Part shown: positions 1,421 to 30,969 of the stretch, in pieces | Position numbering within the stretch: position 1 is the stretch's first letter | Layout of the letters: each line of letters opens with the position of its first letter | Source: Zeus faber | Lineage: Eukaryota; Chordata; Actinopteri; Zeiformes; Zeidae | Direction of reading: 5' to 3' | NCBI GenBank assembly: GCA_960531495.1 | Contig: OY482850.1 | Span: forward strand, 3,307,084-3,371,083 | Length of the DNA: 64,000 bases | Made by a program: the position numbers and the translations under genes | The notes under the pieces: model-generated | The model's input: the letters and a program-made list of their open reading frames with translations, nothing else | Databases searched by the model: none | What the model was told of the DNA's origin: nothing

Positions 1421-1689
1421 CCAACCAAAAACTAAACCCGAACAAAAAGGACTTCCTGGGTTTCCCACTGGATTTTACCAGACATCAAGGGCTAGTTTTT
1501 TTCTGATAACTATAGGTTAACAGGTTATATGTAGGCATACTGTTTATTTCTTGTGTAGTCAAGTCAAGTCACACTTTATTTATAGAGCGCATTTCATACC
1601 AGGGCAACACAATGCGCTTTACAAAGAGATCCAAAAAAGAAAGAGAGAACATAGTTGTCAGCCGGTCATTACAAAAGAATGCCCCTGAA

Positions 1690-3720
1690 ACAACAGCAAC
1701 AACAAGAGCAACAACAAAGACAACAAAAACAACAATAAAAGCGATTCCAACCACAGTGGCAGCAACAGCAACAGAAAACAACACCAGCAGCAACAACAAC
1801 ACCAGCAACCTACATGCAAAGACGTCACCGGAACCGGAAGTGGTAGCTCTCACCGGAACTGGAAAGGTCACTCAGGTTAGAGATGGTTAACTCGAGGTAT
1901 AAGGTTACGTTAAGTTGAGGTATAAGGTAAGCGAGAGTTAAGTTTAGGTATAAGGTTAGTAGCAGCAACGACAACACCAGTTAAGGTATAAGGTTAGCGG
2001 CACCAACAACCAGCAGCAGCAGCAACGACAACACCAGCAGTGTCAATAGCAGCAGCAGACAACAGCAAAAACAGCAACAGCAACAGGGCACAAGCAAAGA
2101 CGTCACCGGGACCAGAAGTGGTAGCTCTCACCGGAACCAGAAATCTCCTCATCTGTATTGAGTCAACCGTGTGTACCATCTCATCTCAACGAAGTAAAGC
2201 ACAGCAAAGACGTCACCGGAAGTGGTAGCCCTTACCGGAAATGGAAATTTCAACTGTGTGCACCATCTCATCTTAATCCAGTCACGGTCCTTTAATAAGT
2301 GACCCTAAGTTAAGGGTCAAGTTTCCAAACAGACCTCGGGAGGGAGATCCTTTTGACTCTCTCTCTCCAAAAACACACCCTTCTTATGATGCTCTAAGTG
2401 TAATATCACAACAGAAACAACCACAGCAACAGAAATAGCAGCAACATCAACACCAGCAGCAACAACAGCAAAACCAAGCAGGAGCAACAACAGCAATGCA
2501 CACGCAAAGGCCTCACTGGAACCGGAAATGGTAGCTCTCACCAAAACCGGAAAAGTCACTCAGGTTAGAAATGTTCGAGATGTTGAGTTGAGGTACAAAG
2601 TTAGAGCATTTTAAATTAGGGTATAAGGTCAGAGATGGTTAAGTTTAAGTATAAGGTTAGCAGCAGCAACGACAACACCAGTTAAGGTATAAGGTTAGCA
2701 GCACCAACACCACCAGCAGCAATGACAACATTAGCGGCTACTGTACCAGCAGCAACAGAATGAACCGGATGTGGTAGCTCTCGCCGGAACCAGAAATCTC
2801 ATCTGTATTGAGTCAACAGTTCTCAGGGAAGCAACGCACAGCAAAGATGTCACCGGAACCGGAAGTGGCAGCCCTCACCAGACACTGAGATTTCAACTGT
2901 GTGCACCATCTCTCATCTAAATCCAGTAAAGGTGGATGGTTAGGTTTAGGTATAAGGTTAGCAGCAGCAACGACAATACCAGCAGAAATAATAGCAGCAA
3001 CAGAAAACCGCAGCAGCAATAGTAGCAGCAACAGCGCACAAGCGAAGACGTCACCGGAACCGGAAGTGGTAGCTGTCACCGAAACCAGAAATCTCCTCAT
3101 CTGTATTGAGTCAACAGTGTGTACCATCTCATCTAAACGAAGTTACGCAGAGCAAAGACGTCACTGGAACCGAAAGTGGTAGCCCTCACCGGAAACGGGA
3201 ATTTCAACTCTGTGCACTGTCTCATCTTAATCCAGTCCCTTAATTAGCGTCCCTAAATTACGGGTCATTCTTACCTCGGGATGGAGATCCTTTTGACTCT
3301 CTCTTCGAAGACACACCCTTCTTATTATCCTCTCACTGAAATATCACAACAGAAACTACAACAACAGCAACAGAAATAGCAGTAGTAGCAGCAGCAGCCA
3401 CAAAACAACAACAGAAGCAACAACATCAACTCCAGCAGCAGCAACAAACAACAACAGCAAAAAAAAGAAAAGAAAAAAAAGACAACAGCAACACACACGC
3501 ACACGCACACGCAAAGAAGTCACCAGAACCGGAAGTGGTAGTTCTCACCGGAACCGGAGAACTCACTCATGTTAGAGACGGTTACATTGAGGTATAAGGT
3601 TAGAGGTGTTTAAGTTAGGGTATAGGGTAAGAGATGCTTAATTTTAGCCATAAGGTAAGCGAGGGTTAAGTTTAGGTATAAGGTTAGCAGTAGCCACAGC
3701 ACCAGCACCAATAACACAGA
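1690..3720 (-). repeat. higher-order repeat 3' UTR of LINE copy A
   Basis: A two-kb block built from a repeating unit of roughly 0.7 kb. Landmarks recur in order: the phrase AGGTATAAGGTTAG (near 1951, 2651, 2950 and 3676), CAG/CAA-rich runs, a pyrimidine-poor segment around AAGGATCTCC, and the box GACGTCACCGGAACCGGAAGTGG or variants of it. That box or a diverged copy is seen near 1821, 2099, 2209, 2511, 2760, 2847, 3048, 3154 and 3513. Short ORFs rich in Gln, Asn, Thr and Ala here come only from the trinucleotide runs and are not genes. Copy B carries about one unit of the same repeat. Confidence 0.85.
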
Positions 3721-3734
3721 CAGACAGTCATAGA

Positions 3735-4550
3735 TTCTAGCGAACAGCAAGGTTTTTAACCTGCTTTTAAAAGTATTCAGTGTGGGGGCCTCTCTCAGGT
3801 CCCTCGGCAGGGTGTTCCATTTACTTAGGCCATAGATACAGAAGGCAGCTTCTCCTGCTTTAGAGTTGGTACAAGATAGTTAAAAGACCACTGCCTCTGG
3901 ACCTGAGAGTTCTTGCTGGTTTGTGTATAATTAGCATTTATTTTATATACTGAGGTACAAGACCATTTATAGCTTTATATACAAGTAGCAGAATCTTAAA
4001 ATCAATTCTAGTTTTGACGGGGAGCCAATGTAGAGATCTAAGAACAGGTGTGATGTGTTCAAACTTTTTTGTCCCAGTGAGAACGCGTGCAGCCGCATTT
4101 TGGATTTACTGTAGCCGCTGCACAGCTGACTTTGGGAGGCCGATGAATAGGCCATTACAGTTGTCCAATCTACTCGTTATGAATGCATGGATTCATTTTT
4201 CGTCTGCTTTTCACAGGAAGCCTCTTAATTTTGTAGTGTTTTTTTCGATGGGAGAAGGCTGATTTTGTGATGTGATTTATATGGCTCTTAAAATTTAGAT
4301 CACTGTCTATGATTACACCTAGATTTTTAGCTTCATTCCTGCTCTCCAGGGAGAGAGAACTAAGATGAGCTGCAATTTTTTGTCTTTGAGCCTTTGCACC
4401 ATGGATGAGTATTTCTGTTTTGTCTTTGGTCAGTTGTAAAAAGTTCTTTGACATCCATGCATTAATATCATTAATACACTGAGTGAGAGAGTGTATGGGG
4501 AGTAGGTCATCGGGAGATAGGGACATGTACAGTTGTGAATCGTCTGCAGT
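3735..4550 (-). pseudogene. LINE ORF2 (reverse transcriptase) C-terminal relic, copy A
   Basis: Minus-strand translation gives the end of an L2-like reverse transcriptase and the region after it. The box ADDSQL survives at the left of the deletion joint (4533-4550). It is followed by SLSPDDLLPIHSLTQCIND, then by WMSKNFLQLTKDKTEIL and NLGVIIDSDL, which are standard in the thumb region of this clade. Further on come a SRLD/NGLF-like stretch and, near 3800, the motif for LRDLREAPTL-type C-termini. Several frame changes and stops separate these blocks. The upstream half of the protein is deleted. Confidence 0.85.
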
Positions 4551-4702
4551 TCATCAAACAGTTCATCCTTCTTCTTAATGTCCTCACGCAGGTTTTGGAT
4601 GTCTTTGAAGACCGACTTCTCTAGAGCGCTGAGCCTGTCGACCAGGCGCAAACAGTTCCCACAATCCGCAGAGGTAGGCATCGATGCCGGCATAGTTAGC
4701 AA
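4551..4702 (-). pseudogene. LINE ORF1 N-terminal fragment
   Basis: About 50 codons from an ATG at 4702: MLTMPASMPTSADCGNC, then a charged stretch (ALEKSVFKDIQNLREDIKK) likely to form a coiled coil. This looks like the beginning of a LINE ORF1 protein (nucleic-acid binding, assembling the RNP). It is cut after about residue 52 and fused to ORF2 sequence. The role is inferred from position and composition, not from a clear domain. Confidence 0.55.
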
Positions 4703-4901
4703 TATGCTAACAGGCTAGCTCGCATTAGCTGAACGCTAGCCAAGCGCTAGCCAAGCCAGAGTCCACGTTCCAAAATCCAAAAAGACAGTTTAGGCGAGGG
4801 TCAAGCCAGGAAAAAGTAGGTATATCACAGTGTAAAAAATCCGAGATCCGTAATCCAAAATCAGGTAGTTTGGGAAGTGATTCAAAGAAGTAGCACAAAC
4901 A

Positions 4902-4938
4902 CAATAGACGTTACCGGAACCGGAAGTGGTAGCTGTAA
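4902..4938 (-). promoter_or_regulatory. ETS/CRE-like box in LINE 5' leader
   Basis: On the plus strand the site reads AGACGTTACCGGAACCGG followed by AAGTGGTAGC. It has two GGAA cores in tandem beside a CRE-like ACGTY. It lies at the 5' border of copy A. Nearly the same box is repeated many times in the 3' UTRs of copies A and B. A LINE needs an internal promoter at this position, so a promoter role is plausible but inferred. Confidence 0.5.
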
Positions 4939-4940
4939 CG

Positions 4941-5390
4941 ATCATTCATTATATTGCATTTGTTCCTGCTTTATTCTTAGTACATACATTTACATGTATC
5001 TATTGTTTGATTGGTTTGAGGTTTTGTTCGTGTTTTGAGATTGGTTGTGATGTGCTTTACCTATAAATTTTGTTCCTCTATTGATTATATGCTCAAAGGG
5101 ATGGAATGTTACAATATTATTCGCTACAATACTGTATTATTGTATGACCATATAAACAAACAGTGGTGTGACACTCTTTAACGCACAAACTCTGTAGGCT
5201 CGTCACAATAAAAAAACAATTCCAGTCCCCCTATTGCCTGTTACATTGTGACAAACCCCTTCCCATGTCACAATGGAGCTTGCCTCTGCGACAACCCTTG
5301 ACCAAGAACTAATTTGTCTCTCTCATCTCATCTCATGTTTTAGTATTCAATAACCCGTATTTTTCATGGTAACAAGACCACCTGCTGGCT
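4941..5390. other. spacer with 70-bp block copy 2
   Basis: No gene. The interval starts TGTAACGATC and a near-matching CCTGTTACA lies near 5249, so a small solo LTR or similar element of about 310 bp is possible. No clear target duplication is seen. The 70-bp block shared with the gag relic is at 5067-5136. Confidence 0.35.
5067..5136 (+). repeat. 70-bp block, copy 2
   Basis: It starts TTTTGTTCCTCTATTG and ends CTACAATACTGTAT. It differs from copy 1 at 620-690 by a few substitutions and a 3-bp gap. It lies just outside LINE copy A and is embedded in a longer AT-rich stretch that copy 1 does not have. Confidence 0.75.
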
Positions 5391-5880: not shown

Positions 5881-6370
5881 AGCTAAGAAGAGCTGCTATC
5901 TCTGTGTCAGAGCTGCAGCCTTCTCTGGTGATGGATGGATGGTGGATGGATAGTGATATTACTTCCTCTTAAAACAAATGCAATACTTTCTTTCATCCTA
6001 GCATTCATTTTGAAATGGAACTCAATTACACAATCTCTATTGAAAATGTGGAACCTTGGAAGAAACGGACGACGATAGACTGAATGGAACAAAACAACAT
6101 TGTGTGTGTGTGTGTGTGTGTTGCGAAGGCGGTCATAAGCGGAGGCTGATTTTTATTTGTTTGTTTACCTGGGCTCTTCAAGGTTAAAGACCACCTGGCC
6201 TACGTCATCGGGACACAGCAAGCGCTTGGTGTCTTCAAACACCTTCTGTCTGTCGGGGGAGAGAGAGAGGAGAGAGAGAAAATTTGAATTTAAAAATGAT
6301 AAAACTATTTATATACGTATATATATTATATACTTTTTAAATAAATTGTAAAAAGATATATATAGATATA
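5881..6370. other. spacer with TG repeat
   Basis: No gene seen. A (TG)n run lies at 6102-6121, and AT-rich sequence at 6300-6370 leads to the TA target of the Tc1 element. Confidence 0.6.
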
Positions 6371-6516
6371 CAGTGGGGCAAAAAAGTATTTAGTCAGCCA
6401 CCAATTGTGCAAGTTCTCCCACTTAAAAAGATGAGAGAGGCCTGTTATTTTCATCATAGGTACACTTCGACTATGAGAGACAAAATGAGAAAAAAAAATC
6501 CAGAAAATCACATTGT
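6371..6516 (+). repeat. Tc1 left inverted terminal repeat
   Basis: Begins CAGTGGGGCAAAAAAGTATT. It matches the complement of 7830-7975 almost throughout, with small A-run differences. TA lies just outside at 6369-6370. Confidence 0.92.
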
Positions 6517-14285: not shown

Positions 14286-15297
14286 TATTGGGTTCAACTA
14301 AATAGGGCAAAACCTACCTACAGGACAGGCAGTTCTTTGTGTCCCTTGGAGATTTTGTGTCTAACAAAGTGGATATTACATGTGGAGTGTCACAAAGTTC
14401 GATTCTGGGCCCATTATTGTTTAACCTCTATATGCTCCCACTTGCACATTTTGTAAAGAAACACAAAATAAAATTACCATAATTATGCAGATGACTCACA
14501 ACTGTGCATATCTCTATCTCCCGATGACTTACTCCCCATACACTCCCTCACTCAGTGTATTAATGATATAAATGCATGGATGTCAAATAACTTTTTACAA
14601 CTGACACAGATAAAACAGAAATACTCATCTTTAGTGCAAAGGCTCAAAGACAAAAAATTGAAGCTCATCTTAGTTCTCTGTCCCTGGAGGGCAAGAATGA
14701 AGCCAAAAATCTGGGTGTAATCATAGACGGCAATCTAAATCACATCACAAAATCAGCCTTCTACCATCTAAAATACATTTAAAAATGAAGAGGCTTCCTG
14801 TCAAAAGCAGACTCTGAGAAATTAACCCATGCATTCATAACGAGTAGATTGGACAACTGTAATGGCCTATTCACCGGCCTCCCAAAATCAGCTGTGCAGC
14901 GGCTACAGTAAATCCAAAATGTGGCCGCACACGTTCTCACTGGGACAAAAACAGTTTGAACATATCACACCTGTTCTTAGATCTCTACATTGGCTCCCCG
15001 GCCAAAACTAAATTTTTTTTTAAGATCCTGCTACTTGTATATAAAGCTATAAATGGCCTTGCACCTCAGTAAGAAAATGAAATGCTAATTATACACGAAC
15101 CAGCAAGAACTCGTAGGTCCATAGGCAGTGGTCTGTTAACTATCCCTTTGTACCAACTCTAAAGCAGGAGAAGCTGCCTTCTGTATCTATGCCCCAAGTA
15201 AATGGAACACCCTACCGAAGGACCTAAGAGAGGCCCCCACACTGAATACTTTTAAAAGCAGGTTAAAAACCTGGCTGTTAACTGCAGTCTATGACTG
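14286..15297 (+). pseudogene. LINE ORF2 reverse transcriptase relic, copy B
   Basis: The relic reads SNKVDITCGV then SQSSILGPLLFNLYMLPLAH (near 14363-14450); the usual PQGS turn is SQSS here. A one-base frame change precedes the catalytic box YADDSQL (near 14480-14505), so YADD itself is kept. SLSPDDLLPIHSLTQCIND, AWMSNNFLQL, NLGVIIDGNL and LDNCNGLFTGLPKSA follow with further frame changes. The end has PSKWNTLPKDLREAPTL and FKSRLKTW. The same order is seen in copies A and C, which helped place the frames. Confidence 0.87.
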
Positions 15298-15308
15298 ACC
15301 GACTGACG

Positions 15309-15351
<43 letters not shown>
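15309..15351. repeat. (TGTC)n microsatellite
   Basis: About ten TGTC units at the ORF2 / 3' UTR joint of copy B. Copy A has a short CAGACAGACAG at the same place (3717-3729), so the array grew from a seed in the element. Confidence 0.92.
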
Positions 15352-15359
15352 GTTGCTGG

Positions 15360-16560
15360 TGTTGTGGCTGCTGTTAACCTTGTACCTAAACTTAACCCTT
15401 GCTTACCTTTTAGCTAAAATTGAACATCTCTAACCTTATACCTCAACTTAACCATCTCTTACCGGAGTGACTCTGGTTCCGGTGAGAGCTACCACTTCCG
15501 GTTCCGGTGACGTCTTCACGTGTGTGTTGCTGTTGACTTTTTTGCGGTTGTATTTTATTGTTGTTGCTGCTGGAGTTGATGTTGCTGCTGCTGCTATTTC
15601 TCTTGCTGTTGTTGTTGTTTCTGTTGTGATATTACAGTGAGAGGATCATAAGGCCGGTGTGTTTTCGGAGAGAGAGAGAGTCAAAAGGATCTCCCTCCCG
15701 AGGTCTGAATGAAAACTTGACCTGTTATTTAGGGATGCTAATTAAAGGACTGTGACTAGATTAAGATGAGATGGTGCAAACAGTTGTAATTTCCGTTTCT
15801 GGTGAGGGCTACCACTTCCGGTTCCGGTGACGTCTTTTCTGTGCATTACTTCGTTGAGTTGAGATGGTACACACTGTTGACTCAATAGGGATGAGGAGAT
15901 TTCTGGTTCAGGTGAGAGCTACCACTCCCGGTCCCGGTGACATCTTCGCTTGTGCGCTATTTCTGTTGCTACTACTGTAACTGCTGCTATTGCTGCTGTT
16001 TTTGTTTCTGCTATTGTTGCTGCTGGTATAGTCGCCGCTGGTGTTGTCATTGCAGCTGGTGTTGTTGTTGGTGCTATATAACTTATACCTTAACTGGTGT
16101 TGTCGTTGCTGCTGCTAACCTTATACCTAAACTTAACCATCTCTGACCTTATTTCTTAACTTAACCTTCTCAAACATAATTCCTCAACATAACAATCCCT
16201 AAACTTTACGTAAACTTAACCATCTCTTACCTTAAACCTTAATTTAATCTCTTACATGTCTAACCTGAGTGACTTTTCCGGTCCTGGTGAGAGCTACCAC
16301 TTCCGGTTCCGATGAGGTCTTTGCGTGTGCGTTGCTGCTGTTGTTTTTAATGTTGTTTTGCTGTTGTTGCTGATGGTGTCGATGTTGCTGCTGCTGTTGT
16401 TGTTGTTTCTGTGGCTGTTGCTGCTGCTGCTGCTGTTTTTTTCTCTTGCTGCTGCTGTTGCTGTTGTTGCCACTGTGGTTGGACTCGCTTTTATTGTTGT
16501 TTTTATTGTCTTTGTTGTTGCTGTTGCTTTTATTGTTGCTGTTGTTTCAGGGGCATTCTT
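15360..16560 (+). repeat. repetitive 3' UTR of LINE copy B
   Basis: About one full and one partial copy of the unit that makes copy A's 3' UTR. The ETS/CRE-like box appears four times (near 15478, 15791, 15903 and 16279) as CACTTCCGGTTCCGGTGACGTC-type sequence or variants. CTG/TTG-rich runs and the phrase AACCTTATACCTMAACTTAACC separate the boxes. Valine/leucine-rich frames in this stretch come from the trinucleotide runs. Confidence 0.85.
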
Positions 16561-17302
16561 CAGTAATGACCAGCTGATAACTACGTTCTCTCTTTCTTTT
16601 TTGTATTTCTTTGTAAAGTGCATTGTGTTGCCCTGGTATGAAATGTGCTTTATAAATAAAGTGTGACTTGACTTGACTTGACTTGTGGAGGTGGAGCAGT
16701 CACATTTGGCAATGTTGGTGTTTCTCTGAGAATGTATTAGGTACTGCCTTCTGTCAAAATTTGATTGATGACCGTGACAAATTTGATTGATGACCCGGGA
16801 TTAATTTGAGAGGTCAAAAGGTCAAGGGGTGGGGCTTCCAGTGGAGCTGTCCTTTGAAGTGCACAAAGGATGCCCTTGTTCTATTTGATCTCTTTGATAT
16901 CTTTGATCTCTTTGAAGTCTCTGAAGTGAACATCTTGTATCCTTGATCCCAGTTGAGAGGTTGATATTACATGTTAATAGGCTACAGCTGTCCTTTGATC
17001 ACAAAGAAAGCAAAACATGTGTTTTCTTAATGACTATGTGATGTTTAAATGCCACCACCCCCACCCCACGTGATGACCTAATTAATAACCCCTTTGATCT
17101 TTCTTTGAAATTAAAATTTCTTGATGTGAAATATGGTTTCTTAATGACAACATGATGTTTAAAAACACCCCCTCTCACATGATGTCTGGCTCCACCGACC
17201 TGTTTAAACATGTCTCCAGGTCCCCAACCCCACCCCACCCCACATGGCATAAATTCCAATCTGTAGAACATTAAAAGCGGATAGAATACGGAAAACAACT
17301 AA

Positions 17303-20129: not shown

Positions 20130-20139
20130 AGAAGTCAGA

Positions 20140-21560
20140 AGTCAGTCATAGACTGTAGTGAACAGCAAGGTTTTTAACCTACTTTTAAAAGTGCTCAGTG
20201 TGGGGGCCTCTCTCAGGTCCCTGGGTAGGGGAATCCATTTACTTGGGGCATAGATACAGAAGGCAGCCTCCCCTGCTTTAGAGTTGGTACGAGGGATAGT
20301 TAAAAGACCACTGCCTGTGGACCTGAGAGTTCTTGCTGGTCCCTGTATAATTAGCATTTATTTTATATACTGAGGTGCAAGGCCATTTATAGCTTTATAT
20401 ACAAGTAGCAGAATCTTAAAATCAATTGTAGTTCTAACAGGGAGCCAATGTAGAGATCTAAGAACAGGTGTGATGTTTTAGTCCCAGTGAGAACGCGTGC
20501 AGCCACATTTTGTAGCTGCTGCACAGGTGATTTCGGGAGGCCAGTGAATAGGCCATTACAGTAGTCCAATCTACTCATTATGAATGGATGGATTCATTTT
20601 TCAGAGTCTGCTTTGTACAAGAAGCCTCTTAATTTTGAAATGTTTTTTAGATGGTAGAAGGCTGATTTTGTGAAGTTATTGATATGGCTCTAAAACTTAG
20701 ATCGCCATCTATGATTACACCCAGATTTTTGGATTCATTCTTGTTCTCCAGGGACAGAGAACTGAGATGAGCTGCAATTTTCTGTCTTTGAGCCTTTGCA
20801 CCAAAGATGAGTATTTCTGTTTTGTCTTTGTTCAGTCGTAAAAAGTTATTTGACATCCATGCCTTGATATCATTAATACACTGAGTGAGGGAGTGTATGG
20901 GGAGTAGGCCATTGGGAGATAGGGACATGTGCAGTTGTGAATCATCTGCATAATTATAGTAATTTATTTTGTGTTTCTTTACAATATGTGCAAGTGGGAG
21001 CATATAGAGGTTAAACAATAATGGGCCCAGAATCGAACCTTGGGGCACTCCACATGTAATATCCACTTTGTTTGACACAAAAGGTAGGTAGGTTTTGAAC
21101 CAGTTAAGAACCAGGCCAGATAGGCCGACCCATTTTTTTATCTCGCTAATATAATCTGATGGTCAACAGTGTCAAAGGCAGCACTGAGATCCAGGAGCAG
21201 AAGAACAGTTTTTTAGCATCATTGTTTATGTACAGATCATCAAGAACCTTGATAAGTGCAGTTTATGTCCTATGGTGAGGTCGAAAGCCAGATTGATGTG
21301 TCTAAGAGGCTGTTTGAGGTTAGATAGTTGTTAAGCTGAAGGTAAACTGTTTTTTCAAGTATTTTGCTGAGGGATGGCAGGTTGGAAATGGGCCTGTAGT
21401 TGGCAATAACTGTTGCATCGAGATTGCTCTTCTACAGGAGTGGTTTAATGACAACTGTTTCAAATGCTGCAGGAAATATACCTGATTGAAGAGAGCCATT
21501 TAAAAATTCTAATACCTCATATGCTAGGCAGTTAAAAACTGTTTTAAAAAATGTGGTACA
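20140..21560 (-). pseudogene. L2-like LINE copy C, ORF2 relic
   Basis: This is the longest reverse transcriptase stretch of the family. From its 5' side on the minus strand: a KPLLKKSNLDA-type stretch with ANYRPISNLP (about 21440-21380), then LLLLDLSAAFDTVDH (near 21180). PQGSILGPLLFNLYMLPLAH follows, then NYADDSQLHMSLSPNGLL (near 20940), AWMSNNFLRLNKDKTEIL and NLGVIIDGDL. It continues with SRLDYCNGLFTGLPKS, PSKWIPLPRDLREAPTL and FKSRLKTLLF at 20142. Unlike copies A and B, the YADD box and PQGS are both in one frame, but frame changes near 21080, 20660 and 20380 break the gene. The 3' UTR and tail are absent; a CA array abuts the ORF end. Confidence 0.9.
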
Positions 21561-21599
21561 GAGAGGGTCCAGGCAGCAGGTGGAGGACCTGAGCTGACC

Positions 21600-21755
21600 A
21601 ACGACAACTCAACAGTGCCACACGCTTCCACGCTCTTATTTAAGCAGCCGATCCCTCATGCCCTACCTTTTTTGCTGCCTGGTTTGCTATGTTTGCTGTA
21701 CACCTCGCCGGGAGTGATAAGCAGTACAGCCCAGACCACAAACTCAAATGGTGCA
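21600..21755 (-). repeat. dispersed repeat X, copy 1
   Basis: On the minus strand it reads GTACTGCTTATCACTCCCGG and GGTGTACAGCAAACAT, then GGCAGCAAAAAAGGTAGGG, CGGCTGCTTAAATAAGAGCG and TTGAGTTGTC. These words return in the same order at 57985-58265, and the later ones at 37655-37830. It has no coding capacity, and its class is unknown. Confidence 0.65.
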
Positions 21756-28258: not shown

Positions 28259-29175
28259 GAACACGATCAGACCCCCTGAGACGAGGGAGGAAGGCAGACT
28301 GGCTGCTATTAGAGCACTATGGGGAAGGAACTGTGAGAGTCTTAGTTCAGAGGAACAGAACCAGCTGTGGGAGGTGTTGTCTGATTTAAAATACATTTTG
28401 CCCGAAGTGAAGACGACGTGGGTCACAGATCAAAACATCGTCAAATGGGATGCAAGGTCAATAAGGATGAGGGCCCGTCACCTTCCACTGGCCCGTAAGG
28501 TGGCAGCAGATCTAGCCCTGTTGGAGATGCAACAGGTAGGTATCATTGAACCCTCTGCAAGCCCCTGGGCCTCCCCAGTAATGATGGCCCCAAAGAAAAC
28601 ACAAGGGAGAGGTGTTGTGGGGATTTTAGGCCACTCAACGAGGTAACCAAGAAGGACGTGTACACCCTGCCTCGTATCGATGAAACACTGAATGCTGTGG
28701 CAGGGTCTTCGTGTTTTTCAGCTCTGGACCTATGAAGCGGCTACTGCAGGTGCCCCTTTCCCCTGTTGCCCGGCTCAAAACAGCATTCACCACAAATAAG
28801 GGTCTGTGGCAGTTTCGGGTACTCCCTTTTGGCCTATGCAATGCCCCCGCCACTTTTGAGAGGCTCATGGACCAGGTGTGTGTCGTATACATGGACAGCA
28901 TCCTGGTCCATGGAGGGTCTTTCCAAGCAGCTCTGGATACCCTGAGGTGCATCTTGGAAAGACTGGCAGCTGCTGGGATGAAGCTCCACCCACAAAAGTG
29001 TCGCTTCATGCAGAGAGAGATCACGTTCCTGGGTCACCAGCTCAGAGGGGAGGGAAACACAGTGACGAACAAGGTCCAGGCAGTGAAAGAGTGGCCCACC
29101 CCCACAGACATACGGCAGCTTAAGAGCTTCCTCGGACTAGCATCATACTGTCAGAGGTTTGTGAGGGGATTTTTC
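28245..29175 (+). pseudogene. gypsy reverse transcriptase, dead
   Basis: The N-part in the first frame has IRMRARHLPLARKVAADLAL and GIIEPSASPWASPVMMAPKK. It changes frame near 28635 (RPLNEVTKKDVYTLPRIDE, then FSALDL and stop) and again near 28730. The palm then reads AFTTNKGLWQFRVLPFGLCN and APATFERLMDQV. The catalytic box, usually YxDD, is YMDS at 28888-28899, so the last Asp is replaced, and sequence before it is shortened. FLGHQLRGEG and LKSFLGLASYCQRFV finish the domain and connection. Loss of Asp plus the frame changes leave it inactive. Confidence 0.88.
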
Positions 29176-29560
29176 TGTCTGACTGTTCCAGTCTTTTGCC
29201 TACTGCCAGAGGGCAGAGAGTTTGCATGGAGTGTCAGGCTGCTTTCAGTGCATTGCAAAGGGCCTTGGTGTTGGCCCCAGTACCCCCCCACCCCCCACCC
29301 CTGACCCTGCCCTACCCTTTATCCTGGACACAGATGCCAATAGCGTGGGCAACGGCGCAGTGCTGGGTCAGGTATGGCATGGCAGGGAGGAGAGAGTAGT
29401 GGCATACCATAGTAGGACATTCTCTAAAGCAGAACACAGCTACTGTGTCACTCGATGGGAGCTGCTTGCAGTAGTCTGCGCCATACTTCACTTTAAGTAG
29501 AGGCCTGCCGTTCACCGTGATGACCGATCACTCAGGAAGTTCGAGAGTGGGAACCGGGTC
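29176..29560 (+). pseudogene. gypsy RNase H relic
   Basis: The reading begins in one frame and moves to another near 29222. PFILDTDANSVGNGAVLGQV holds the first catalytic Asp, and VVAYHSRTFSKAEHSYCV with WELLAVVCAILHFK holds the Glu. A TAG follows HFK. FTVMTDHSG with the next Asp then appears in a different frame near 29512-29540, after which homology stops. Confidence 0.82.
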
Positions 29561-29654
29561 TATCAGAACAGGCAGCCGGAAACTTGCTCTAGGTTGTTGA
29601 TGCAGCAGAGTGGAGGCTGCGGCAGGGAGAGGACATGGACCTTAAGCCTGTGTT

Positions 29655-30928
29655 GTGTTGGGTGAAGGAGCAGAAGAAACCTCCATAGGTTGCAGCTACC
29701 TCACAAACCACCCAAGGGCTGTGGTCCGTGTTCGAGGCCCTACGTTTCCAAGATGGTGTATTGCAGAGGGAGTGGAAGGAGCCAGCTACAGGGGAAATAA
29801 GGTGGCAAGTGGGGGTACCCACAGCCCTAAAGTTAATAGTGCTCCACTCCATAGACGGGCCGCGAGGGACGGTCATTTTGGGGTGACCAAAACCCTCCGC
29901 CATCTGCACACGGGATTTTATTGGGGGCAACACAAAAGGGACGTGATATATTTTTCCCGCCACTGCGACAGCTGCACAGCTCAGAAGGGCCCCTTGGACC
30001 GATCAGAAGCCCACCTACAACAGTTCCCGGGGTGGGCTCAGTTCTGGGCCCATTTCCCCATACCAAAATAGGCAACAGGTACATCCCCACAGCCATGGAA
30101 TACTTCGCAAAATGTCCAGAGATGTACACTCTGCCAGACCAGTAGAAAGAGACCATATCAGGAGCTCTAGTCCAAGGCATGCTCAGTCGGTTTGGGACAA
30201 TTCACACTAACTAGAGTAGGAATTTTGAATCCTGTGTGTTCGCTGCCATGTGTGACAGATTAGGCTCTCGCAAAACCCGCACTGCATCCCTGCATCTTCA
30301 AAGTGATGGTCTCGTTGAAAGGTTCAATCGGACTGTGGCAGAGCAGCTCGTCATGGTCACAGCCAAACACCAGCAGGGATGGGACCAACACCTTCTCCTT
30401 GTCCTGATGGCTTACCGGTCTGCTGTCCAGGACTCAACATCCTGGACATCTCTTCGCCAGGAATCAGCTTCTGCAGAAGGAAGAAGAGGAGCTACGACAT
30501 TCGGGCCTAGGGGCGGCACTTCGGAACAGGGGAGTTTGTATGGGTGTATAGTCCCTAAAGGAAGAAAGGACGGTGTCCAAAACTTGACAGCAAGTGAGTG
30601 GGGCCCTGGAGAATCCTGGAAAGACTGGGGGGGTGGTGTACAGGGAGCATATGCCATCCAGGGGAAGGATCATAGCGCTCCGCCAGACAGAGCAGCCCCT
30701 TACCGGGGCACTGCAGTCCCCAGCCGAGCCATAGCCAAGTCAACTCCTCCCGCTGACACCCCTGAGAGAAGTGCCCCTACAACCCACAGTCAGTGACTGT
30801 TTCCTCTGCGCCCCAATCTCCCTCACCTCGGCACTCTGTTTGGTCTCCCGGTCCCGGGAACCTGAGAGCCTCCCACTGTGCACCAAGGCATAGGACGCCC
30901 CCCAGCCACCTGAGAGATTTGGTTTGAG
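29655..30928 (+). pseudogene. gypsy integrase relic
   Basis: The zinc-binding start is AARDGHFGVTKTLRHLHTGF, then YWGQHKRDV and HCDSCTAQKGP (HHCC type, 29859-30000). The first catalytic Asp (normally a VDVLGPFP-type box) is lost by a small deletion: the sequence reads GVGSVLGPFP. The second is changed: IHTN then a stop (Asn codon 30209-30211, TAG 30212-30214). The Glu is present in DGLVERFNRTVAEQL (near 30308-30352). AYRSAVQDSTSW follows, then degraded C-terminal sequence and a final RPPSHLRDLV with stop near 30928. Confidence 0.85.
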
Positions 30929-30969
30929 ACTGATGCCTGGGGGGCGTGGACTCTTTTGCACTTTATTTC

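Follow-up and report, generated by a model that had tools for sequence, protein, structure and literature searches.

The window (the whole 64,000-nucleotide stretch of Zeus faber DNA analysed here) contains three copies of one retrotransposon, A, B and C, whose ORF2 sequences are about 90-91% identical to each other. The element that carries the array described below is a LINE with two ORFs, identified as such by an endonuclease domain in ORF2 (Pfam PF14529, E 1.8e-7, in genomic copy L009; L-numbers denote genomic copies throughout) and a reverse transcriptase (RT) domain (PF00078, E 1.7e-13, in genomic copy L020, and also present in window copy C). A PDB search with one RT fragment returned no relative. 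The ORF1 pieces of L009 and L020 contain motif-like stretches with 0 Pfam matches, which may be a coiled coil and an SGNH-like esterase; by its motifs the LINE is putatively of CR1/L2 type. Its copies end 3′ in short TGACT direct repeats instead of poly(A), as in CR1/L2-type LINEs, and an Rfam scan of the copy B tail (16480-16720, E<=10) found no LINE-tail family and two chance-level matches only. The three copies are laid out as follows:

1555..4940, minus strand: LINE copy A, internally deleted; 5′ terminus at about 4934-4940, 3′ tail end at about 1555
4907..4934, minus strand: 5′-terminal box of copy A (GCTACCACTTCCGGTTCCGGTAACGTC); family homology begins at -6 of the core box
4545..4693, minus strand: start of copy A ORF1 (MPASMPTSADCGNCLRLVDRL...), fused to ORF2 at about 4545 by an internal deletion at GCAGA; translation compared by eye with L020 and L023
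3720..4545, minus strand: C-terminal part of copy A ORF2 (RT), decayed; identity with copies B and C is about 90-91%
14286..16685, plus strand: LINE copy B, 5′ truncated in the RT
20136..21620, minus strand: LINE copy C, ORF2 with RVT_1, then (GT)n; box array absent; left limit (about 21620) set by eye

The GT repeat of copy C is followed by unrelated DNA. A 58-bp direct repeat (93%) flanks copy A at 618-675 and 5064-5121. Elsewhere in the window, a presumably Ty3/gypsy-like pol remnant occupies 28400-30960, with RVT_1 in the frame 28684-29304. In L009, an open frame, presumably transposase-like, breaks into the LINE ORF2 at about 5926-6436 of the reverse complement.

Boxes are arrayed in the LINE 3′ UTR

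The 3′ UTR spans about 3720 down to 1555 on the minus strand in copy A and about 15290-16680 on the plus strand in copy B. The initial annotation described it as a higher-order repeat with two or three boxes per unit, and self-comparison together with a unit alignment bears this out: the unit of ~0.7 kb, said to recur two to three times in A and to occur about once in B, is present as two full units and a partial one in A and as one in B, and units are 82-85% identical to each other. What is repeated is a two-box module, [TTTCCGGTTCCGGTGAGAGCTAC][CACTTCCGGTTCCGGTGACGTC], arranged in the two copies as follows:

2956..3690, minus strand: copy A 3′ UTR unit 1; 28-bp repeats, box 1 (3537-3516), CTG/TTG tract, spacer, box 2 (3178-3157), box 3 (3068-3047)
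2664..2955, minus strand: copy A partial unit; box 2867-2846 and a degenerate box at about 2771-2750
2006..2663, minus strand: copy A 3′ UTR unit 2; boxes 2530-2509, 2230-2209 (6 bp lost) and 2120-2099
1821..1842, minus strand: copy A terminal box, placed after 28-bp repeats
1555..1640, minus strand: copy A 3′ tail of TGACT direct repeats
15371..16319, plus strand: copy B array; boxes 15493-15514, 15813-15834, 15923-15944 and 16298-16319

Copy B thus reads, in its first half, 28-bp repeats, box 1, CTG/TTG tract, spacer, box 2 and box 3 and, in its second half, CTG/TTG tract, 28-bp repeats, box 4, CTG/TTG tract and 3′ tail; copy A has this order plus one further unit and a partial one. At least nine boxes had been counted in the 3′ UTR of A and four in that of B. 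We recover nine in A, including one that lacks 6 bp and one that is degenerate, and four in B, while scanning more strictly, with a 30-mer and at most 8 mismatches, yields eight in A and again four in B, with 0 matches in the 47 kb of other window DNA. Searched with the pattern CCGGAACCGGAAG and up to 2 mismatches, the window gives 17 matches vs 0.37 expected, a number reached by 0 of 100 shuffles. The 16 matches in A and B all have the same orientation relative to the LINE, and the one at 30845, in the Ty3/gypsy-like DNA, was judged to be chance.

Part of the LINE family carries the array

The exact 22-bp box occurs 398 times in the source genome of 803 Mb and 153 contigs (198 forward, 200 reverse), vs 0 for a reversed control, and 0 times in public collections of viral and prokaryote sequences, in which an animal element is not expected. 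We sampled array-bearing copies from the best 40 of 1253 candidates scored with the terminal 3′ UTR of copy A, of which 20 stretches of about 9.9 kb were taken; together with A and B these make 22 array-bearing copies, 21 of them independent, with L028 duplicating L027. Three equal-scoring copies stand at about 8.41, 8.53 and 8.75 Mb of contig C20, and two of them, L027 and L028, resemble a segmental duplication. Within this best-scored sample, the array holds 2-10 boxes per copy and is followed by the tail in 22 of 22 copies, and the end of ORF2 is recognised upstream of it in 13. The 3′ UTR measures 1252-2623 bp in 12 of these 13; in the thirteenth, L017, 6.4 kb lie between the ORF2 end and the tail. 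The ~28 bp directly after the tail differ in each of the 22 copies, L027/L028 excepted, and the listed LINE copies are spread over many contigs. The array therefore lies inside the LINE, between ORF2 and a common tail in copies with differing flanks, as had been proposed, and is not a separate satellite that merely flanks the copies, which the initial annotation had named as the alternative.

Sampling by ORF2 (best 40 of 885 candidates scored, 3′ sides of 20 taken) gave 17 of 20 copies with 2-10 boxes, and the tail is visible in 12 of these 17 within the 2.75 kb read. In the other three (L068, L081 and L085), ORF2 is followed by a GT repeat and boxes are absent, as in window copy C, and the common tail was matched in two of the three. 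Genomic copies that lack the unit, the other contrary case foreseen at the outset, were thus encountered in three of the 20 and in copy C, and not in the other 17; the array is a trait of part of the LINE family, not of all of it. L081 (86-303) has a compact, array-less 3′ UTR, about 215 bp long and ending in the common tail, which constitutes a second 3′ UTR form of the family, and comparison by eye indicates that the array replaces the stretch from the stop-codon repeat to the last ~85 bp of the 3′ UTR. The single stretch examined for the 5′ end of such a short-form copy (L088) contained no LINE.

The box is the 5′ terminus of the LINE

A further box lies at the 5′ terminus of copy A (4928-4907), with a 34-bp match to the box. 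From a search with 4560-4940 we took 39 of the best 40 among 410 candidates and added copy A, giving 40 5′ ends. In this best-scored sample, 33 of 40 begin at -24 to +19 relative to the core box and seven further in, and 0 of 40 reach beyond -24, though the yardstick continued into 3′ UTR sequence. Over the 74 bp upstream of -28, the 40 ends show no match at E<=0.01 to each other or to four 3′ UTRs, and because this upstream sequence is unrelated among them, the two-box module is a real 5′ terminus. The box is thus the LINE’s own 5′ terminus, a point absent from the initial annotation. The two-box module of the 3′ UTR recurs in the longest 5′ ends, and the first ~46 bp of the LINE form a tandem pair of boxes that are, as judged from their sequence, of ETS type.

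The left edge of the rear module is nearly the same. Three classes of 3′ module agree with each other from about -25 to +26 and are at chance level outside (agreement of 0.13 at -34..-30, 0.47 at -29..-25 and 0.27-0.33 after +26), and this decay at about -25 places the left edge of the 3′ module within a few bases of the LINE 5′ end. Beyond the box, similarity to the 5′ UTR is found only in class 2, for which 13 of 2000 shuffles are as good, vs 1405 and 1674 for the other two classes.

Front and rear modules differ at the second base of the heptamer, where 27 of the 29 5′ modules that can be read have A and 186 of the 195 3′ boxes have G (L028, the duplicate of L027, and L075, with 8 boxes, were left out of this comparison). 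TAACGTC is found in 19 of the 29 5′ modules and TGACGTC in 0, so that in this comparison the intact CRE-like heptamer TGACGTC is confined to 3′ boxes. The near-fixed A/G difference implies that the 5′ and 3′ sets of modules have been separate for some time, and it contradicts an ongoing exchange between the two ends.

After insertion, boxes and surrounding array decay alike

CTTCCGG is kept in 119 of the 195 3′ boxes, TGACGTC in 113 and both in 68; among the best-scored 5′ ends, CTTCCGG is present in 15 of 40. Agreement with the majority base is 0.947 in core-box columns (one half-box included) vs 0.949 outside them (L028 left out), and terminal 3′ UTR regions agree with the majority at about 95%. 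Between units, boxes are 85-89% identical vs 80-84% for the remainder. Post-insertion decay of the boxes resembles that of the rest of the array, and we set aside purifying selection on the boxes, for which neither the comparison between units nor that after insertion gives a clear conservation excess. The majority box does not match the exact cooperative ETS-CRE overlap motif, given in the consulted part of a published study as CCGGAAGTGACGTCAC with GT common to both parts (PMC4555227): its ETS and CRE parts stand in reverse order (CACTTCCGGTTCCGGTGACGTC), and TAACGTC is the majority form at the 5′ end. The enhancer-like character given to the boxes in the initial annotation is putative.

The initial annotation held that the 3′ UTR expands and contracts as a satellite. 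Box number does vary from 2 to 10 across insertions; however, among 114 box segments from 21 copies (L028 left out), 112 have their nearest relative in another copy, so that the arrays look to have come down from source elements. A new expansion in every copy was rejected accordingly, as a within-copy nearest relative was found for 2 of 114 segments, one of which (L014) is an artefact of overlapping segments. Judged from these sequence relationships, the array structure looks to be inherited from source elements, with the number of units changing over time.

Seven copies lack a full LINE upstream. Three of these UTR-only candidates (L011, L015 and L026) were set aside, as their left edges run into other sequence, and of the four with clean left edges, one, L013, starts at a module. 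The left edge of this UTR-only insertion lies about 1405 bp before the tail end, at a 3′ UTR module, where full-length LINEs begin; this one case in four is to be read against a -19..+26 band around modules that covers 15% of the 3′ UTR.

Discussion

A LINE promoter must lie within the element’s own transcript, as is established for L1. Since the LINE must carry its promoter in its transcript, and the two-box module stands at the start of the element, the module would most likely be the internal promoter of the LINE and set its start site, and may bind factors. We favour, with a probability of roughly 0.58, this promoter reading, in which a full-length array-bearing LINE carries one promoter-like module in front and 2-10 sense-oriented rear copies of it behind the coding region, in the manner of HeT-A. 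In part of the family, the array stands in place of the middle of the short 3′ UTR, its units being sets of two or three sense-oriented copies of the 5′ module, parted by CTG/TTG tracts, 28-bp repeats and spacers; the order in which the two 3′ UTR forms arose and the direction in which the module was copied are inferred. Since the 3′ copies are oriented like the 5′ module and start at almost the same edge, sense promoters in the 3′ UTR, for which HeT-A and TAHRE are the precedent, are the natural reading. Their most likely effect would be to fire sense and to help or enhance transcription of the element, to its putative benefit. If this is true, hundreds of ETS-type promoter-like modules are scattered through one genome.

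The rear modules may also yield short tail-bearing RNAs that are inserted by the LINE’s own RT, and L013, one of the four clean cases, has the form that retrotransposition of a 3′-initiated RNA would be expected to produce. A more far-reaching version, which we consider doubtful, is that evolution has taken this dispersed vertebrate LINE towards an LTR-like layout, in which 3′ UTR copies of its start-site promoter would fire sense and boost the element, and its own RT would reinsert short tail-bearing RNAs as SINE-like pieces that start at a module, as L013 may show.

The 3′ UTR could instead be inert and hypervariable, the 5′-terminal sequence having once been copied in through a template jump or a recombination event and duplicated afterwards together with simple repeats, so that the boxes are passengers that play no transcriptional part there. 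The boxes show little or no conservation excess and many of them are damaged, array-less copies with the same tail indicate that the array was not needed for their insertion, and plant Ogre elements provide a parallel in the hypervariable tandem repeats of their 3′ UTRs (part of PMC7004042). However, copies with the array are frequent (17 of 20 when best-scored copies are sampled by ORF2), and the same module occurs in one orientation in three unrelated array contexts, so we regard inertness as possible, if on the whole unlikely. It is far less probable that the boxes work at the RNA level, serving there for structure or protein binding, and not as sites in DNA. Their presence at both RNA ends in equal orientation would fit such a role, but five module segments show no gain in folding over dinucleotide shuffles (z of -0.23 to 0.24), which led us to reject RNA structure as the reason for the boxes, and the Rfam matches in the copy B tail are the two chance-level ones noted above.

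Capture by the LINE of an independent genomic satellite, which would also be the source of its 5′ end, would account for the higher-order organisation and for the 398 exact boxes genome-wide, whose surroundings were read for a minority. Yet the array occupies one place in the element, and the left edge of the module lies near the LINE 5′ terminus. Across the 20 loci, each about 9.9 kb long, all boxes outside the 3′ UTR region (taken as the last 4 kb before the tail where the ORF2 end is missing) are 5′-terminal. Long element-free tandem arrays were absent from these 20 loci as well, and we deem a captured satellite very improbable.

A LINE with a promoter-like module at its front and sense copies at its rear, our preferred reading, resembles several known systems in part. 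At the human L1 5′ end, YY1 dictates the site of transcription initiation, according to the sections consulted of one report (PMC11602158), which provides a model for the 5′ module described here. Mouse L1 5′ UTR monomers are likewise tandem units whose number varies between copies, and are promoters as presented in the portions consulted of three sources (PMC6454616, PMC9022269, PMC11602158); the LINE differs from them in having its multiple copies in the 3′ UTR, about two boxes at the 5′ end, and an ETS-like sequence. Dictyostelium TRE5-A is, like this LINE, a non-LTR element with a module gained at its 3′ end, and part of the relevant study describes this C-module as a promoter and the relative TRE5-B as being without it (PMC4559204). 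However, the same account has the C-module producing antisense RNA and treats it as different from the plus-strand A-module (PMC4559204), whereas the modules of the LINE are sense-oriented and match its 5′ end. Plant Ogre, in contrast, is an LTR element, and the consulted portion of its description does not present its 3′ UTR repeats as promoter copies and reports them also as long free satellites (PMC7004042), of which the LINE loci that we read contain none. Among titles and abstract openings from a limited open-access library, Repbase not included, none described a vertebrate LINE that repeats its 5′ end in its 3′ UTR.

The two ends of Drosophila TART are linked by its perfect non-terminal repeats. 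These repeats are mentioned in the consulted sections of a review that also reports that HeT-A and TAHRE have sense promoters in their 5′ and 3′ UTRs alike and likens HeT-A to a form midway between the non-LTR and LTR classes of element (PMC5537684). The origin of LTR elements from non-LTR elements is an old question, for which HeT-A has been proposed as an intermediate (PMC5537684, in part), and in the present case an array-bearing LINE stands beside array-less relatives with the same ORF2 and tail, so that two layouts can be compared within one family. Unlike the telomeric elements HeT-A, TAHRE and TART, this LINE is dispersed over many contigs and not arranged in head-to-tail telomeric arrays, an arrangement contradicted in the fetched copies by stretches after the tail that differ and by unrelated upstream flanks, and the module that it repeats, at about 46 bp, is short and occurs 2-10 times. 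With these Drosophila telomeric non-LTR retrotransposons it shares an unusually long 3′ UTR (PMC5537684, in part) and, as in an element of the HeT-A type, one sequence stands both at its 5′ end and, sense-oriented, in its 3′ UTR, where its promoter activity is putative.
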